Shown here piece after piece: positions 2,719 to 29,516 of a stretch of DNA of 29,516 bases. The notes beneath the pieces were generated by a model. It did not search any database and had not been told where the DNA came from. It worked only from the letters and a program-made list of their open reading frames with translations. Where the stretch lies: the IMG/VR virus record IMGVR_UViG_3300020202_000189, positions 1 through 29,516 of that record; one strand, given 5' to 3'. This DNA is from a virus. Position numbers and translations under genes: made by a program. Each line of letters begins with the position of its first letter. Position 1 is the first letter of the stretch.

Positions 2719-3228
2719 TCAGCGCGTGATTCCGCCGGGCCAGTGCTTCTCGTCCGCGGGCCAGCCGGTGAGCTTTTCGACCTGCTTCGCGCGCAGGTGC
2801 GGAATGGGGCGGGACGTCGCCGACGTCTTCGGCTGCCGGTACATCGACATCAGCGTCGGAGAAATCTTCAGCGCCTTGGCAAGGCTGCGCAGCGTGTAGT
2901 TGGGCCGCCCGCGCTCTTTGCCGGTGCTGATGAACGCGATGAACTCATCGCCGGGGGACTTGGCCTGCGAGATTGCCAGGCGGCGGGCGGCTTCCATGAT
3001 CTGTTTACCGTCAACATTAGGGAGCCACTCGCCTCTTTGCAAGCGTGCCGTTGTCAACAGGACGTGGCGCTGCATCTCCCAGCGCACGACCTCGACGTCA
3101 AGCGCCCGAATCTGCTGGTGCAATGCCTCCCGTCTCTCGTACAGCTTCGCCAGCTCGCGCTCGGCCTGCTCGATGCCGGCGCGAATCTGCTCCTCGGTCA
3201 GCGGCTTGTCGGGCGGCTTTTCGGTCAC
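2719..3228 (-). CDS. Coiled-coil and helix-turn-helix DNA-binding protein (169 aa)
   Basis: Starts at GTG 3228 with only a weak ribosome site. Residues about 10-58 form a charged coiled coil (IEQAERELAKLYERREALHQ), suited to dimerisation. The C-terminal half contains a Cro/repressor-like helix-turn-helix: 'YTLRSLAKALKISPTLMSMY' with the A-x-x-L-x-(I/V)-S pattern, followed by 'RAKQVEKLTGWPADEKHWPG', which resembles the family's third helix and closing segment. It is probably a transcription regulator of the early region, since it lies immediately upstream of a promoter with direct repeats. Whether it represses or activates cannot be read from the sequence. Confidence 0.65.
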   Translation of the reverse strand: MTEKPPDKPLTEEQIRAGIEQAERELAKLYERREALHQQIRALDVEVVRWEMQRHVLLTTARLQRGEWLPNVDGKQIMEAARRLAISQAKSPGDEFIAFISTGKERGRPNYTLRSLAKALKISPTLMSMYRQPKTSATSRPIPHLRAKQVEKLTGWPADEKHWPGGITR

Positions 3229-6073: not shown

Positions 6074-6775
6074 ATGAGGCTGTGCGAGTTTCAGGGGTGC
6101 GGCAGAGAGGTTGTCGCGAAGGGGCTGTGCGACCCGCATTACCGCCAAGCCAAGCGCGGTCTGCCGCTGTGGCCCGTTGGTGCGAGGCCGAAGCCGCCGC
6201 CACTTGTTTGCTCCTTCAGCGGATGCGGGCGAGAGGTCGTCGCTCGCGGCCTGTGCAGCGGGCACTACGAGCAGCGAAAGCAGGGGCAGTCCCTTCGCGC
6301 GCTCAACCCGTTCCTGGGAAAGCGCTGGAATGCGAACGAGAGGCTTTGGAACCAGGTCGAGAAGACCGAGGGGTGCTGGAACTGGGTCGGCACTCTGCAC
6401 CGAGGCGGCTACGGGAAGGTGTGCGTCAACGGCCGCTATATGGGGGCGCACCGGCTCGCATGGGAGCTGGAGCGGGGCGCCGTCCCGGACGGCATGTTCG
6501 TGTGCCACCGTTGCGACAACAGGCGCTGCGTGCGACCTGACCACCTGTTTCTCGGCACGCACGACGACAACATGGCCGACATGGTCAGCAAGCGGCGGAC
6601 GTCCTTTGGAGCGAGGAACGTCAACGCCAAGCTGACCTCCGACGACGTCACTGCGGCCAGATACGCGCATGCGATGTGCGGCACGACGCTGACCGCGACT
6701 GCACGCGCGCTCGGCGTCACGAAGCAGGCCATGCGCGCGGCCCTCAGGCGAGATACGTGGGCGCACGTCCCGTAG
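6074..6775 (+). CDS. HNH homing-type endonuclease with tandem zinc knuckles
   Basis: A plus-strand, free-standing homing endonuclease of 233 aa. Two nearly identical zinc knuckles (C-x4-C-x9-C-x2-H) occupy residues 4-22 and 46-64 (C4, C9, C19, H22; C46, C51, C61, H64). They are followed by an HNH_3-type nuclease: 'GAHRLAW' with H126, then '[20 protein letters not shown]' with H145, N149 and H157, and 'DNMADM' at 165-170. The C-terminus (about 186-228) resembles a NUMOD-type HTH ([15 protein letters not shown]) for target DNA. It opposes all neighbours, ends 5 bases from the converging ejection gene and has a weak ribosome site: signs of a mobile insertion. All nuclease residues appear intact. 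Confidence 0.85.
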
Positions 6776-24209: not shown

Positions 24210-26331
24210 CTGGGCTCTCTCCTTCTGGTTGCTCGCCCTGCATCTCGGGCGTGACAGGCATCTGCGGCGGCTCGGCCCTGGCGACCATCTCGGCCAGGGC
24301 TGGCTCGTCCATGCTTGTGAAGAACTTGTGCGCGACGCTGCGGGTAATAAGCGCCGTAGTCACCGGGTCGAATGTCCCCGGCGGGATTTGCGTCAGCGCC
24401 TGCAGCATCTTCATGGCCTTCGCCTCACGCTGCGGCTGGCTGGCCATGTTCGGGTCCGACGTCGAGACGATGTCGAAGTCCTCGAGGGCCGCGTAGTCCT
24501 CGCGCGTGACGTGGAACTCCTCGACGGGCGGCGGCGGCTCCCACTCCGGGATGCTTTGGTCGCGCGGCGCCTGATACGAGAACGTGTCGCCCTCCTCGTC
24601 GAGCGTCTGCGACAGGATGTACGCGAACACCTGTTGCTCATTGAGGCGCGAGCGGTCGATGCGCGCCGCGATGGTGCTGATGCCCTCCATCGCGTTCGCA
24701 TTCCGAATCTCGGTCTCGGCCGCCGTCTGCCCTGACATGCCCTCGGCGCCGCCGACGACGTCGTCTACTGTGATTTCCTGAACCGACTGCGCCATCCGCT
24801 CCTCGAGCTTGAAGGCGTTCGGGTCGGGCGGCGGGAACTGCAGAACGTGGATGCCAGCGCCGGCGTTTACCTGCTCCGGGGTGAGCTGCGTCTCGGTCAC
24901 CTCGCCGAGCACAAGCTTCTGCTCGCCGCGCGGCCCTCGAGCGAACCGCGACTGCACGCCCGTCGGCCGCTGGTTGAGCCGCATGAGGCTCGCGTAGCCG
25001 CTCATCGCCTCGTTGGCGACGATGTTCGGACCCTCGACGAGCACGCCGATGCCGTAGTGGTAAAACCCCTCCGGGTTCGGCAAGCACGGGTAGTGCGTGA
25101 ACCTGTGAAACGGCACCTTGCGCGCGGGCGCGGGCAGCGGTGGCTCCTGGGGCGGCGAAGGCGGCAGCGGCAGCATCGCCGGGTCGGGCGCCGGCAGCGG
25201 GTTGCCGAACTCGTCGACACCTGGCACCGCCATGGCCGCGTGCTCGTCGAGCGCGATGTTGTAAGCCTCGTTTGCCGCCTGCATCTCGGCGTCGCGAAGC
25301 TGCATCTCGCGCCGGTAGCGCTGAGCGTCCCGCGGGTCGTCCTTCTCGCACAGCGTGAGCCGCAGGACCGTGCGGGTCATCTCGTCGACGCACACGGTGA
25401 CGTGGCGCTGACGCTTCTCGCCCGGCAAAAGTAGCCAGCGGTCCTGTTCGATGATTTTCCGGGGCGCGTCGTCGTCGTGCGACGGCGGCTTAGTGCCCTG
25501 GATGTCGTCGGCAGTCCGCTGGACTTCGCCCTGCCGCTGCGGCTGATCGCCCGCGCCCGGCGTCGGCGCGCCGTCTTCTCCGTACGGCTGCGGGTAGAGC
25601 TTGGCGACGTTGACGTAATAGTCGTCGTCTGCCAACTGCTCGAGCTCGTGCCGGTAGTACTCTTTGATCCACGACTTCCGCGGCACGTCGGCCATGTCCG
25701 GCCGGTCGCTCTTGCACTTGTACGGGACGATGAAGTTGTCCGAGTTGATGAACTCGAAGCACGGGCGCCGCTCGAGCGGGTTGTAGTACCAGACGCTGAA
25801 CGCGCTGCCGTAGAGCAGAATCTGCACGCCGCCGCGGTCGTACGACGGCACGTACTCGGGCACGCGCTTGCGCAGGTAGTAGTTCGTGTGACGCGTGATC
25901 TTGCGGGCCTGCGTCTTGCGGTCTGGTACAGCCGTGTCCCACGTGTAGAAGTCGCCGCTCGCCGGGAAAAAGTGGCGATGCATGCGCGGGTGGAACAGGT
26001 TCACAGCCTTCGTCAGGTACGGCATGTGAACGAAGAGCAGGTTTTTCTCGAACGCGTTCTTGCTCGGAATCTCGCCCGAGAAGAGTTGCACCCAGCGCGC
26101 CTTGCGCTTGCGCCACCCTTCGCTGCTACCGAGGTCGATGTCCTTGTCTCGGACGACGCGCTCGCCGACCGCGACGAGAAACTTCTCGGGCAGAATCTTG
26201 GCGAGGTTCACCTCCTGCTCGTACGAAGCAGGGGAGGGCGCTGCAGCGGCCTCGGCCATCATCTCGACCATCTGCGGGTCAACGCCCGCATCTGCGGCCA
26301 TGGCCGCCGTATCCATCGGTGTTTCAGCCAT
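24127..26331 (-). CDS. Portal protein (734 aa)
   Basis: The length agrees with P22-like portals (725 aa in P22). After an Ala-rich N-terminus the protein has the typical portal pattern: 'WVQLFSGEIPSKNAFEKNLL', 'YDRGGVQILLYGSAFSVWYY' (stem/wing segment), 'KSWIKEYYRHELEQLADDDY', 'PFHRFTHYPCLPNPEGFYHY' followed by 'GIGVLVEGPNIVANEAMSGY', and 'VVGGAEGMSGQTAAETEIRN' with the helical 'GISTIAARIDRSRLNEQQVF'. It forms the dodecameric channel through which DNA is packaged and ejected. The C-terminus is Pro-rich and its last 83 bases are shared with the next gene. Start ATG 26331 overlaps the terminase stop by eight bases. Confidence 0.85.
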   Translation of the reverse strand: MAETPMDTAAMAADAGVDPQMVEMMAEAAAAPSPASYEQEVNLAKILPEKFLVAVGERVVRDKDIDLGSSEGWRKRKARWVQLFSGEIPSKNAFEKNLLFVHMPYLTKAVNLFHPRMHRHFFPASGDFYTWDTAVPDRKTQARKITRHTNYYLRKRVPEYVPSYDRGGVQILLYGSAFSVWYYNPLERRPCFEFINSDNFIVPYKCKSDRPDMADVPRKSWIKEYYRHELEQLADDDYYVNVAKLYPQPYGEDGAPTPGAGDQPQRQGEVQRTADDIQGTKPPSHDDDAPRKIIEQDRWLLLPGEKRQRHVTVCVDEMTRTVLRLTLCEKDDPRDAQRYRREMQLRDAEMQAANEAYNIALDEHAAMAVPGVDEFGNPLPAPDPAMLPLPPSPPQEPPLPAPARKVPFHRFTHYPCLPNPEGFYHYGIGVLVEGPNIVANEAMSGYASLMRLNQRPTGVQSRFARGPRGEQKLVLGEVTETQLTPEQVNAGAGIHVLQFPPPDPNAFKLEERMAQSVQEITVDDVVGGAEGMSGQTAAETEIRNANAMEGISTIAARIDRSRLNEQQVFAYILSQTLDEEGDTFSYQAPRDQSIPEWEPPPPVEEFHVTREDYAALEDFDIVSTSDPNMASQPQREAKAMKMLQALTQIPPGTFDPVTTALITRSVAHKFFTSMDEPALAEMVARAEPPQMPVTPEMQGEQPEGESPDDPGQPTEAMAADGGDAGIHPGIAGMA

Positions 26332-28081
26332 CGCTCGCGTACCAGTCTGGGAATGCGCTTCCCGTTGCGCGGGCCTCTCGTAGTTTCAAAATCTCGACGA
26401 CGACGCCGGTCGCCTTCGACTCGTGCGTCTCGTGTTCGCCGGCTAGGGGCCGCGACATCACCCCGTAGGCGAGCGCGTCCATGTCGTGGTCGTCGGCGTT
26501 CGTGTCCCACACGTCCGGGTCGTTCGGGTCGAACGCCAGGAGCGGGATCGTCACGATGGGGCCCGTCTCCTCCCAGCCGCTTCCATCGGTCGACCGGATG
26601 CGCGTCTTGCACGACCGGAAAAAGCGCAGCCCTGGGATCACAAACTCGCCGCGCGCGTTCGGCGTACGCCGCCGCAGCCGGTTGCGAATCTGCTCGGCCG
26701 CCGAGTGCCGCATGCCCGTGCCCTTGTCGGCGCGGAAGAACCCGACGCCCATGCGGTCGAGAATCTCGCCGCGCGACTCGCCCGATTCGCCCGAGCGCGC
26801 CCAGACCGACGAGTCCATCGGCCCCCACACCGTCGACATGTCCTGCGTCGGGTCCCACTCGGCCTCGACGATGAGCTGGCCGTTGACGAAGAGCGGCTCC
26901 GACTCGATGTCCTTGATGCGCCGGCCGAGTTCTTCGGCGGTGAGCTTGCGCGTCGACAGCGACCGATAGCAGACGAGGTTCCCCTCGGGGTCGACGGCGA
27001 ACCACAATACCGACGACCGGCTCGAGAACCCGTAGTCAGCGCATTTGAACCGCGTCCAACTGTTCGGGATGCGGAACGGCTCGCAGATGTGGACCGACGG
27101 ATCCCAGTCCTCGCCAACCCAGGCTCCCTCGTCGACGTCCCAGTCGTTGAGGAGCAGCGCGCGCCGCGTGGCCTCCGAGCGCATCATGAGCGATGCCTCG
27201 TACTTGCCGTCCTCCATCAGCGCCGGGTTGTCGTAAAGGTTCGATGGGATGTAGACCTGCCAGTCCTCCACGATGCGGCCGTCGAGCAGCGTCGTGCGCA
27301 CCTTCACCGACGTCTCGGGCTCGGCGACCGTGACGAACCGCCGCTTGAGCCAGAGCTTCGTGCTCGTGCCGATAGGGTTCGTGAGCAGGTAAAGCTGCAG
27401 CATCCGCCCGAGGCCCTCGTCGTCGGCGACGCGGATGCGCTGGTCGATCTTGTCGATTTGCTTGACCGTGAACTGGACCGCCTCGTCCATCACGACCATC
27501 GAGTAGTTGCCGCCCCAGTACTTCTCCCAGTCGTCGTCGTGCTCCATGCCGCCGAACTGCACGACGTAGCCGCCGGCCGACGGGAACGTGGCGGTCTTCT
27601 GCACCTCGTTCCAGACGACGTTCGGATCAATCCGACGCATGATCGTCTTGAAGTGCGAGATGACCTGCAGCAACTCCGGCATCGTCCGCCGCAGGAACAG
27701 AAAGTGGCCCTTGGACGCGCTTATCTCGCCGGCCTCAAAGCGCGCCTTCTCGAGCGCGTACTGCTTGAGCCACAGATGGGACCCGGCAAACGTCTTCGAA
27801 CCACCGGCGCCACCGCCGCCGAGAACCCAGCGCTCAGTCGCAGTGAAAAGCTTCTCCTGCTGCCCGAGGAACGGCGCGAACACCACCTCGGGCGGCAAGT
27901 GACGCCGACACACGACGCGGTCCGAATACCTGTGACACGCGGCCTTCTCGCAGCCGGGCTCGTGGCAACGGCCGTGCGGGTACTTGCCGAACCCGTACTT
28001 GTTCTCGTTCGAGATAGTCGAGCCGCCCGGCCTCCGGTGCGGCTCCTTACCATCGTGCGGCCCGAACGACGACAGATGCAT
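26324..28081 (-). CDS. Terminase large subunit (585 aa) with N-terminal zinc-binding motif
   Basis: ATG 28081 forms a TAATG overlap with the previous stop. The ATPase has Walker A 'GGGGAGGSKT' at 88-97 and Walker B 'MVVMDE' at 195-200. The nuclease half begins at 'FKCADYGFSSRSSVLWFAVD' (D349) and ends with 'DHDMDALAYG' (D535), giving an RNase-H-like fold that cuts concatemers. Before the ATPase, residues 39-61 hold C39-x4-C44-x4-C49 ... C58-x2-H61, a zinc-knuckle-like extension similar in design to the knuckles of the HNH endonuclease here. It packages DNA through the portal encoded next. The length exceeds P22 gp2 (499 aa), partly from this extension. Confidence 0.9.
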   Translation of the reverse strand: MHLSSFGPHDGKEPHRRPGGSTISNENKYGFGKYPHGRCHEPGCEKAACHRYSDRVVCRRHLPPEVVFAPFLGQQEKLFTATERWVLGGGGAGGSKTFAGSHLWLKQYALEKARFEAGEISASKGHFLFLRRTMPELLQVISHFKTIMRRIDPNVVWNEVQKTATFPSAGGYVVQFGGMEHDDDWEKYWGGNYSMVVMDEAVQFTVKQIDKIDQRIRVADDEGLGRMLQLYLLTNPIGTSTKLWLKRRFVTVAEPETSVKVRTTLLDGRIVEDWQVYIPSNLYDNPALMEDGKYEASLMMRSEATRRALLLNDWDVDEGAWVGEDWDPSVHICEPFRIPNSWTRFKCADYGFSSRSSVLWFAVDPEGNLVCYRSLSTRKLTAEELGRRIKDIESEPLFVNGQLIVEAEWDPTQDMSTVWGPMDSSVWARSGESGESRGEILDRMGVGFFRADKGTGMRHSAAEQIRNRLRRRTPNARGEFVIPGLRFFRSCKTRIRSTDGSGWEETGPIVTIPLLAFDPNDPDVWDTNADDHDMDALAYGVMSRPLAGEHETHESKATGVVVEILKLREARATGSAFPDWYASDG

Positions 28082-28536
28082 TACGGCCGCCTCACCTCGA
28101 CCCAGGCCGACCACTCGACGGTGCCGACACCGCCGTCGGTGACCTTCACAAACATCTCCGAGTCGCTGTTGACGCCGAGCTGACAGTCGAGCCCAGCGTG
28201 TGACTCGATGGCCGTCGCCAGCGTGACAGTCGCCCCGCGCTGTGCCGCTGCCGTCACGCCTACGCGCTGAAAGAGCCCGGCGAACTCGTAGCGAGCGTAA
28301 ACGGAACCGTCCTCCGACGTCCCGACGACCAGGGCACGCATCTCGGCCACCTCGTCGGCCCCGAGCGGGTCGCTCCGGTAAATCTCCGTCAGCGTGTTCG
28401 TCGCCGCGGTCGTGAGCGCCCGGAGCCGCGATTCCTTCTGGTTCAGCGCCGTGCGCACCTGGCGCAGGCACCGCGCGAGCTTCCGCGGGTCGTCCCGATC
28501 GTCGGTGAAGTCCGTCTCGACGGTGAGCTTGCTCAA
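28081..28536 (-). CDS. Hypothetical coil and beta-sandwich protein (151 aa)
   Basis: TTG start at 28536 in a TTGA overlap, with GGAG before it. The N-terminus is a short coil (DPRKLARCLRQVRTALNQKE), and the C-terminal half is beta-rich ('GSVYARYEFAGLFQRVGVTA', 'RGATVTLATAIES', 'MFVKVTDGGVGTVEWSAWVE'), resembling small phage structural proteins. It is coupled to the terminase by TAATG. It may be a minor virion component or a packaging accessory; I cannot name it. Confidence 0.55.
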   Translation of the reverse strand: MSKLTVETDFTDDRDDPRKLARCLRQVRTALNQKESRLRALTTAATNTLTEIYRSDPLGADEVAEMRALVVGTSEDGSVYARYEFAGLFQRVGVTAAAQRGATVTLATAIESHAGLDCQLGVNSDSEMFVKVTDGGVGTVEWSAWVEVRRP

Positions 28537-28976
28537 GGCTTCTCTCCGCCAAGCGCCGTGACGTCGATGACGGGAGCGTTGTCGCGCGCCTCGCGCGTCC
28601 TCTCGACCGGCGGCGGGAGCACGACCTGCACCGCCATCGCGGGCTTTGCGTCGCTTGCCTCGCGCGTGCGCAACTCGAACCGCCGCTGCGCCATCTTCAC
28701 GTAGTAGGGAACTTCCTTCTCCGTGCGCTTGGCGTCCGTCGCGATCTGGAGCTCCTCGCGCGTCCACCCGGCCTTCTCGATGGCGGCGTCGTCCTGGTTG
28801 AGGAGCAGCTCGCCCTCCTCGTAGTTCCGTAGGCGCTTCGCGAGCCCGGCGGCCCGCACGAGCTCCACGTCCGCCTCGGCGACGTCCGCGATGATGGACG
28901 CCAGGGCGTTGCGACGAGCAATGAGCCCCTCCTGCTTCGGGGGCAGCCTCCGAGCGATGGTGGTCTCGCCCTTCAC
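28533..28976 (-). CDS. Possible small terminase subunit (147 aa)
   Basis: GTG 28976 in a GTGA overlap; the longer frame to 29141 would overlap the HTH gene heavily and is rejected. The protein is helical (ALASIIADVAEADVELVRAA, 'LAKRLRNYEEGELLLNQDDA', 'IATDAKRTEKEVPYYVKMAQ', 'RRFELRTREAS') and ends with a Pro-flanked strand 'AVQVVLPPPVERT' and 'APVIDVTALGG'. A helical core followed by such a C-terminal strand segment is seen in many phage small terminases, which recognise the packaging site. No clear HTH is visible, so the upstream HTH protein is the alternative candidate. Confidence 0.4.
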   Translation of the reverse strand: MKGETTIARRLPPKQEGLIARRNALASIIADVAEADVELVRAAGLAKRLRNYEEGELLLNQDDAAIEKAGWTREELQIATDAKRTEKEVPYYVKMAQRRFELRTREASDAKPAMAVQVVLPPPVERTREARDNAPVIDVTALGGEKP

Positions 28977-29425
28977 TTGGGCGGCCTCACCGGCTCTGGA
29001 ATCTGGACGACCTTCGTGTACCGCTCCAAAAACGCCTTGAAGGACCGCCCCGGAATCCGCCAGCGCGCGCCGCGCCCGTTTTCGGCGCCGATGTGGATCG
29101 CGCCCGGGAACTTCCCCTGGCGGCACCAGTTGCCGACGCACCAGACGCTGACGTTCAGCGCCCGTGCGATCTCAGGCGTCGTGTAGATCCAGTCGAGCTT
29201 GTCCTTCGCCCGCTTCCAGTGGGACGCCTTCCAATAGGGCATCTTCCGCCCCGTCGACCACTCCCAGAACCCATCACACGGCAGCCCCGTGATCGGGTGA
29301 AGCGGCCTTTCGTTCCACGGCGGCTCCTGACCCGGCTCGAAGATTTTCTTGACCGCACCGTCGTACTGCTTGCGGTCCACCCGGACCACGACATCAGGCA
29401 GCGGTGCGCGGACGGGCTCAGCCAC
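28973..29425 (-). CDS. Helix-turn-helix DNA-binding protein (150 aa)
   Basis: Shown from GTG 29425; the GAGGGG next to it is too close for a ribosome site, so the true start may be a downstream GTG. The C-terminal half contains an excisionase/MerR-type HTH: 'IYTTPEIARALNVSVWCVGN' followed by 'WCRQGKFPGAIHI' and 'GARWRIPGRSFKAFLERY'. The N-terminal half includes 'PPWNERPLHPITGLPCDGFW'. As the first gene of the packaging operon, behind a palindrome cluster, it may regulate that operon or recognise the packaging site as a small terminase. Confidence 0.65.
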   Translation of the reverse strand: MAEPVRAPLPDVVVRVDRKQYDGAVKKIFEPGQEPPWNERPLHPITGLPCDGFWEWSTGRKMPYWKASHWKRAKDKLDWIYTTPEIARALNVSVWCVGNWCRQGKFPGAIHIGAENGRGARWRIPGRSFKAFLERYTKVVQIPEPVRPPK

Positions 29426-29435
29426 CCCTCATGTG

Positions 29436-29468
29436 TGCCATATTGACAAACCGTGTGTCAATCTGGCA
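29436..29468. promoter_or_regulatory. 33-base inverted repeat, operator candidate
   Basis: TGCCATATTGACA (29436-29448) and TGTCAATCTGGCA (29456-29468) form 13-base arms with one mismatch around a 7-base spacer. It is located 11 bases before the first gene of the packaging operon. The arms contain TTGACA half-sites shared with the next palindrome. A dimeric regulator binding site is likely; no -10 box at proper spacing was found on either strand. Confidence 0.5.
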
Positions 29469-29477
29469 CGAGTGAGT

Positions 29478-29502
29478 GTGTCACGTGTGACAATTTGTCA
29501 CA
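29478..29502. promoter_or_regulatory. Second TGACA palindrome, operator candidate
   Basis: TGTGACAA-T-TTGTCACA (29486-29502) is a perfect palindrome of 8-base arms around one base, preceded by another TGTCAC half-site at 29479-29484. It shares the TGACA core with the 29436-29468 repeat. An ATG on the plus strand at 29511 behind AGGGG may begin a divergent gene beyond the window; that gene could encode the regulator. Confidence 0.5.
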
Positions 29503-29516
29503 GGGGCCCGATGACC

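Follow-up and report, generated by a model that had tools for sequence, protein, structure and literature searches.

A cluster of TGACA-type quasi-palindromes resembling a multi-site operator upstream of a phage packaging operon

What does a dense group of TGACA-type inverted repeats do at the very edge of a phage fragment, immediately ahead of its packaging genes? The window analyzed here comprises the whole IMG/VR virus record, which is 29,516 b long, is classed as linear, and represents part of a tailed phage genome. Nearly all of its genes run leftward: an HTH_17 protein is followed by two unknown proteins, the terminase large subunit (TerL), the portal, and structural genes, and the left end carries genes for an M15 endolysin and an exonuclease VIII-like protein. 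The cluster lies in the last 91 bases, between the HTH_17 gene, which starts with GTG at 29425, and the end of the record, within the 85-bp gap preceding the packaging operon. An earlier note on this DNA had proposed a lysis-lysogeny or early-late switch, or a packaging recognition site. The evidence below favors, with a probability of roughly 0.55, a control region of the leftward packaging operon, i.e., an operator with an overlapping promoter, read by a putative DNA-binding protein.

The five TGACA/TGTCA words of the cluster (TGACA at 29444 and 29488; TGTCA at 29456, 29479, and 29496), representing five half-sites, are best read as three similar 15-bp quasi-palindromes of the form GTGNCA-N3-TGNCAC (sites A, B, and C) plus a spare half-site (Table 1). 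Sites A and B mirror each other and together form the 35-bp dyad. The site centers are 20 and 32 bp apart, corresponding to about two and three helical turns, and, measured upstream from the first packaging gene, the three sites fall between 10 and 76 bp. The window repeats are mainly inverted sites, with one 18-bp direct repeat 32 bp apart, and the GC content of the region is 0.53 vs. 0.66 for the record. All elements described in the earlier note were recovered, including the perfect palindrome with 8-base arms, the further half-site, and the common words; its inverted repeat with one mismatch is also present, but it starts one base earlier than claimed, with arms of 14 rather than 13 bases.

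Table 1 Repeat elements of the cluster and neighboring genes in the window
Feature	Position	Strand	Sequence	Remarks
35-bp dyad	29435..29469		arms GTGCCATATTGACA / TGTCAATCTGGCAC, spacer AACCGTG (7 nt)	14-base arms, 13/14 pairs, one mismatch
Site A	29435..29449		GTGCCATATTGACAA	one mismatch to GTGNCA-N3-TGNCAC
Site B	29455..29469		GTGTCAATCTGGCAC	zero mismatches to GTGNCA-N3-TGNCAC
Spare half-site	29478..29483		GTGTCA
Site C	29487..29501		GTGACAATTTGTCAC	zero mismatches to GTGNCA-N3-TGNCAC; core of the perfect palindrome
Perfect palindrome	29486..29502			8-base arms, 1-nt center
HTH_17 protein, 150 aa	28973..29425	-		opens the packaging operon; candidate site reader
Conserved all-helical protein	28533..28973	-		small-terminase candidate, by position only
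Unknown protein	28081..28536	-		between the small-terminase candidate and TerL
Terminase large subunit	26324..28081	-
Candidate divergent gene start	29511..29516	+	ATG ACC	SD-like AGGGG at 29502-29506, 4 nt upstream of ATG; from the sequence only

A whole-record scan allowing zero or one mismatch revealed two perfect matches and one one-mismatch match to GTGNCA-N3-TGNCAC in 29,516 b, all in the cluster, although the pattern was derived post hoc from the cluster region and its uniqueness in the record is thus descriptive. The 35-bp dyad is the top-scoring dyad of the record, and the dyad with 8-bp arms shares fourth place among the dyads listed with eight others. In local dinucleotide shuffles of 29425-29516 (n = 3000), the best dyad score was reached in two, the second best in two, and both in none, and triples of 15-mers at least 11/15 alike arose in one. 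Among whole-record shuffles, 10 of 30 held at least one dyad matching the 35-bp dyad in quality, indicating that this dyad alone is unexceptional, and that it is its place and company that are exceptional. Similar 15-mer triples are found at four further places in the record; counting the cluster, 12 of 2943 stepped windows contained one.

Related phages were obtained from TerL and portal searches of viral_contigs, and their TerL identity to the window is 53-58% for L002, L003, L006, and L007 and 51% for L032. The region upstream of the packaging genes was compared in five phages (the window, L003, L006, L007, and L032), with L002 and L033 left out because they start too far downstream. The densest 70-bp stretch of TGAC/GTCA lies upstream of the packaging genes in all of these except L006, and in a control covering 136 tetramer classes TGAC/GTCA alone reached four of the five phages, with the next best reaching two, this control having been made after L003, L007, and L032 had been noticed by eye or in a first density count, and with hand-set region limits. 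None of the relatives has exact window-type sites in the region upstream of the packaging genes, and the single-site pattern has one match in four related records, with one mismatch and far from that region. Conservation among relatives, the absence of which the earlier note had counted toward a refutation, is found for the TGAC/GTCA core and its place but not for the palindromes themselves. Dyad ranks in the relatives are mixed, as the best dyad of L006 and the second-equal dyad of L007 lie in gaps upstream of packaging genes and that of L003 is one of many equal-scoring dyads. In L003 and L007 the cluster is flanked by co-directional genes, and in L032 it sits in a divergent gap, suggesting that the conserved feature is proximity to the packaging operon; since the cluster is off the divergent junction in two relatives, a divergent switch is weakly supported.

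In L032, the divergent gap contains eight copies related to GTATGGTCAC that align in register, mostly at 10-bp intervals, and the ATGGTCA half-site of this array is also present in L007. The gap (L032:287-1060) is a 774-bp non-coding stretch. Its phased 10-bp direct repeats are at 819-909, a mirrored cluster occupies 362-382, with another at 440-453, and the rightward gene is preceded by TTGACA-N16-TATACT, a consensus-like promoter read by eye. A ribbon-helix-helix (RHH_5) gene (L032:1482-1742) is situated directly behind a TGAC cluster and ahead of the HTH_17 gene; an RHH_5 protein was dropped as a general reader because the domain was found in one of five related records (G007, L032). The ends of the 47-kb record G004 (L007, L015) overlap with small differences inside one gene, indicating that this genome maps as a circle though classed linear.

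Taken together, symmetry, repetition, low GC, and the positional conservation of TGAC/GTCA in four of the five phages support a regulatory or recognition site for a DNA-binding protein, as the earlier note had held. Repeated similar sites in the intergenic region upstream of an operon are what an operator displays, and the cluster would work like an operator, a statement of likeness and not of membership; as an element, it belongs to an ordinary class. A DNA-binding protein would bind the three sites, probably cooperatively, and its binding would either block or stimulate transcription of the packaging genes. A likely reader would be the HTH_17 winged-helix protein from the first gene, acting as an autoregulator; proteins of the BldC/Xis type occupy roughly one site for each helical turn. 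Alternatively, the reader could be a repressor whose gene lies in the part of the genome that the record lacks. Rightward divergent transcription may also occur; the record contains two codons of the candidate divergent gene before its end at 29516. No sigma-70-like promoter was found in 28500-29516, the scan covering that promoter type only. A terminator was discarded because 28500-29516 contains no terminator-like site, and a structured RNA because no Rfam match up to E 1 was obtained in 28000-29516. If confirmed, the cluster would provide, for a barely known phage lineage, a concrete element controlling the packaging and structural genes, an example of a half-site array keeping its place and TGAC core while its exact sequence drifts between phages, and a defined DNA target for the HTH_17 protein.

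Regarding the reader, the 150-aa protein carries an HTH_17 domain (9.6e-11) and is a plausible candidate. A four-sequence profile compared with solved structures matched the CAP REPEAT entry 8vd6 (1.3e-5), which scored above BldC (6amk, 1.7e-5; 6ama, 3.7e-5), as well as RacA (0.0091), the Pukovnik Xis 4j2n (0.0095), and RppC (0.038). The AlphaFold model of the protein is poor (mean pLDDT 62), and Foldseek with this model yielded no structural match reaching E 0.001. Of the five phages, all but L007 (i.e., the window, L003, L006, and L032) have an orthologous HTH_17 gene ahead of the terminase genes. The distribution of homologues was dropped as a proof of which protein is the reader, since the co-occurrence of gene and cluster is not strict, with L006 having the gene without the cluster and L007 the cluster without an orthologous gene nearby. 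HTH_17 domains were detected in all five records searched (below the curated cut-off in G002; two in G004), meaning that each of them could have an HTH_17 reader, although the packaging-adjacent gene still does not track the cluster. A search of structures with the protein encoded at 28533-28973 gave no useful match, and its assignment as a small terminase by fold was dropped.

Two known systems invite comparison. Like multi-site phage operators of the lambda OR/OL type, the cluster comprises several near-identical quasi-palindromic sites with near-helical spacing upstream of an operon; unlike them, it is followed by packaging genes, the divergent gene is not visible, and no HTH_3 (CI/Cro-type) repressor domain was found in the record, for which reason a lambda-type repressor encoded there was dropped. 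The lysis-lysogeny and early-late switches of the earlier note are conjectural here; for the former, the window yielded neither an HTH_3 repressor nor a tyrosine integrase, although two relatives have integrases. Excisionase-type arrays of BldC/HTH_17 proteins are similar in that the gene next to the cluster specifies an HTH_17 protein whose profile matches include BldC and Pukovnik Xis. BldC binds direct repeats head-to-tail with the consensus AATTXXXX(C) (PMC5859096), which resembles AATNTGKCAC only loosely, and the related RdfS also oligomerizes head-to-tail (PMC11963761). The 9-bp direct repeats of BldC are paralleled by the L032 array with one site per helical turn, whereas the window sites are mainly inverted and fit this geometry less well, and head-to-tail direct repeats about 9-10 bp apart are present only in L032.

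The main rival is a packaging recognition site (cosB- or pac-like), at which the small terminase or the HTH protein would bind the repeats and start DNA packaging. This is unlikely, though its position fits, as the cluster lies directly upstream of the terminase region like cos and pac sites and is tracked there in L003, L007, and L032 regardless of a divergent gap; in addition, packaging-related proteins, RppC among them, can have HTH_17-like folds, and the HTH homologues of L003 and L006 weakly match terminase small subunit PHROGs (E 0.0062 to 0.054). However, the window HTH protein has no terminase PHROG match at E 0.001, L006 is without the cluster, and no known cos architecture was recognized in the window cluster. 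Moreover, the circular map of G004 passes through the region without a break, its ends overlapping elsewhere, and the G003 record is also continuous there, while HK97 TerS needs one 15-bp site near the cut rather than an array (PMC10370121). A combined role is quite improbable, in which the TGAC-core array would be a fast-evolving, lineage-wide element whose repeats serve as both operator and packaging site, with a BldC-like packaging-operon protein autoregulating the late operon and marking DNA for packaging. Somewhat less remote, but still improbable, is that the repeats are initiator-binding iterons belonging to a replication origin or partition site: the iteron-like phased 10-bp array in the 774-bp gap of L032 fits such a role, but the window has only five half-sites, and no replication initiator was recognized among the neighboring proteins scanned in the window, L003, L006, L007, and L032.

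A chance cluster of short inverted repeats is very improbable. The dyads in the shuffled records and the post hoc motif are in its favor, but the local shuffles (both dyads in 0/3000; the triple in 1/3000) and the tetramer control across the five phages argue against it. Least probable is the core site (attP) of a tyrosine recombinase, with the 14-bp arms placed around the 7-bp spacer. The geometry of the 35-bp dyad would suit such a site, and tyrosine integrases are encoded by two of the four records searched (G003 and G004; none in G000 and G002, both fragments). These integrases, however, are far from the region, neither a tRNA nor a tyrosine integrase was found in the window, and site C repeats the arm sequence as a palindrome of its own, unlike a core site.

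Beyond phages, the paired pattern GTGNCANATTGNCA-N7-TGNCAATNTGNCAC has two matches in genome_contigs (257 Gb), against about 0.015 expected by hand arithmetic if all bases were equally likely, and is absent from viral_contigs. One match lies upstream of clpB in a Lentisphaerae metagenome-assembled genome (MAG) and the other immediately precedes a MarR gene in Pseudonocardia (L022). In the Lentisphaerae MAG (G005; L021, L024, L027), the single site GTGNCANATTGNCAC occurs six times (control 0), with one copy upstream of dnaK, two forming the clpB pair, and three inside reading frames. The clpB, dnaK, and MarR matches suggest that such sites occur at promoter positions of cellular genes, without implying one regulator family. 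The Pseudonocardia pair resembles the window in its two GTGNCANATTGNCAC sites with centers 20 bp apart; there the MarR protein is a candidate reader from its position, no MarR match was obtained among the window proteins scanned, and the agreement may be convergent. A link to heat-shock regulators was dropped, as neither HrcA nor MerR_1 was found in the Lentisphaerae MAG and half of the single-site matches fall within reading frames; an undescribed heat-shock operator in this MAG is possible. A full-text search of the open literature found no published occurrence of the site sequences, and a topic search likewise found none.

Two further features of the window were observed by eye. A stretch with the look of a Cro/YdaS-like helix-turn-helix is encoded at 2719-3228 (-), with no Pfam or PHROG match in support, and a 233-aa frame at 6074-6775 (+), opposing the leftward structural block, has the look of an HNH-type homing gene.
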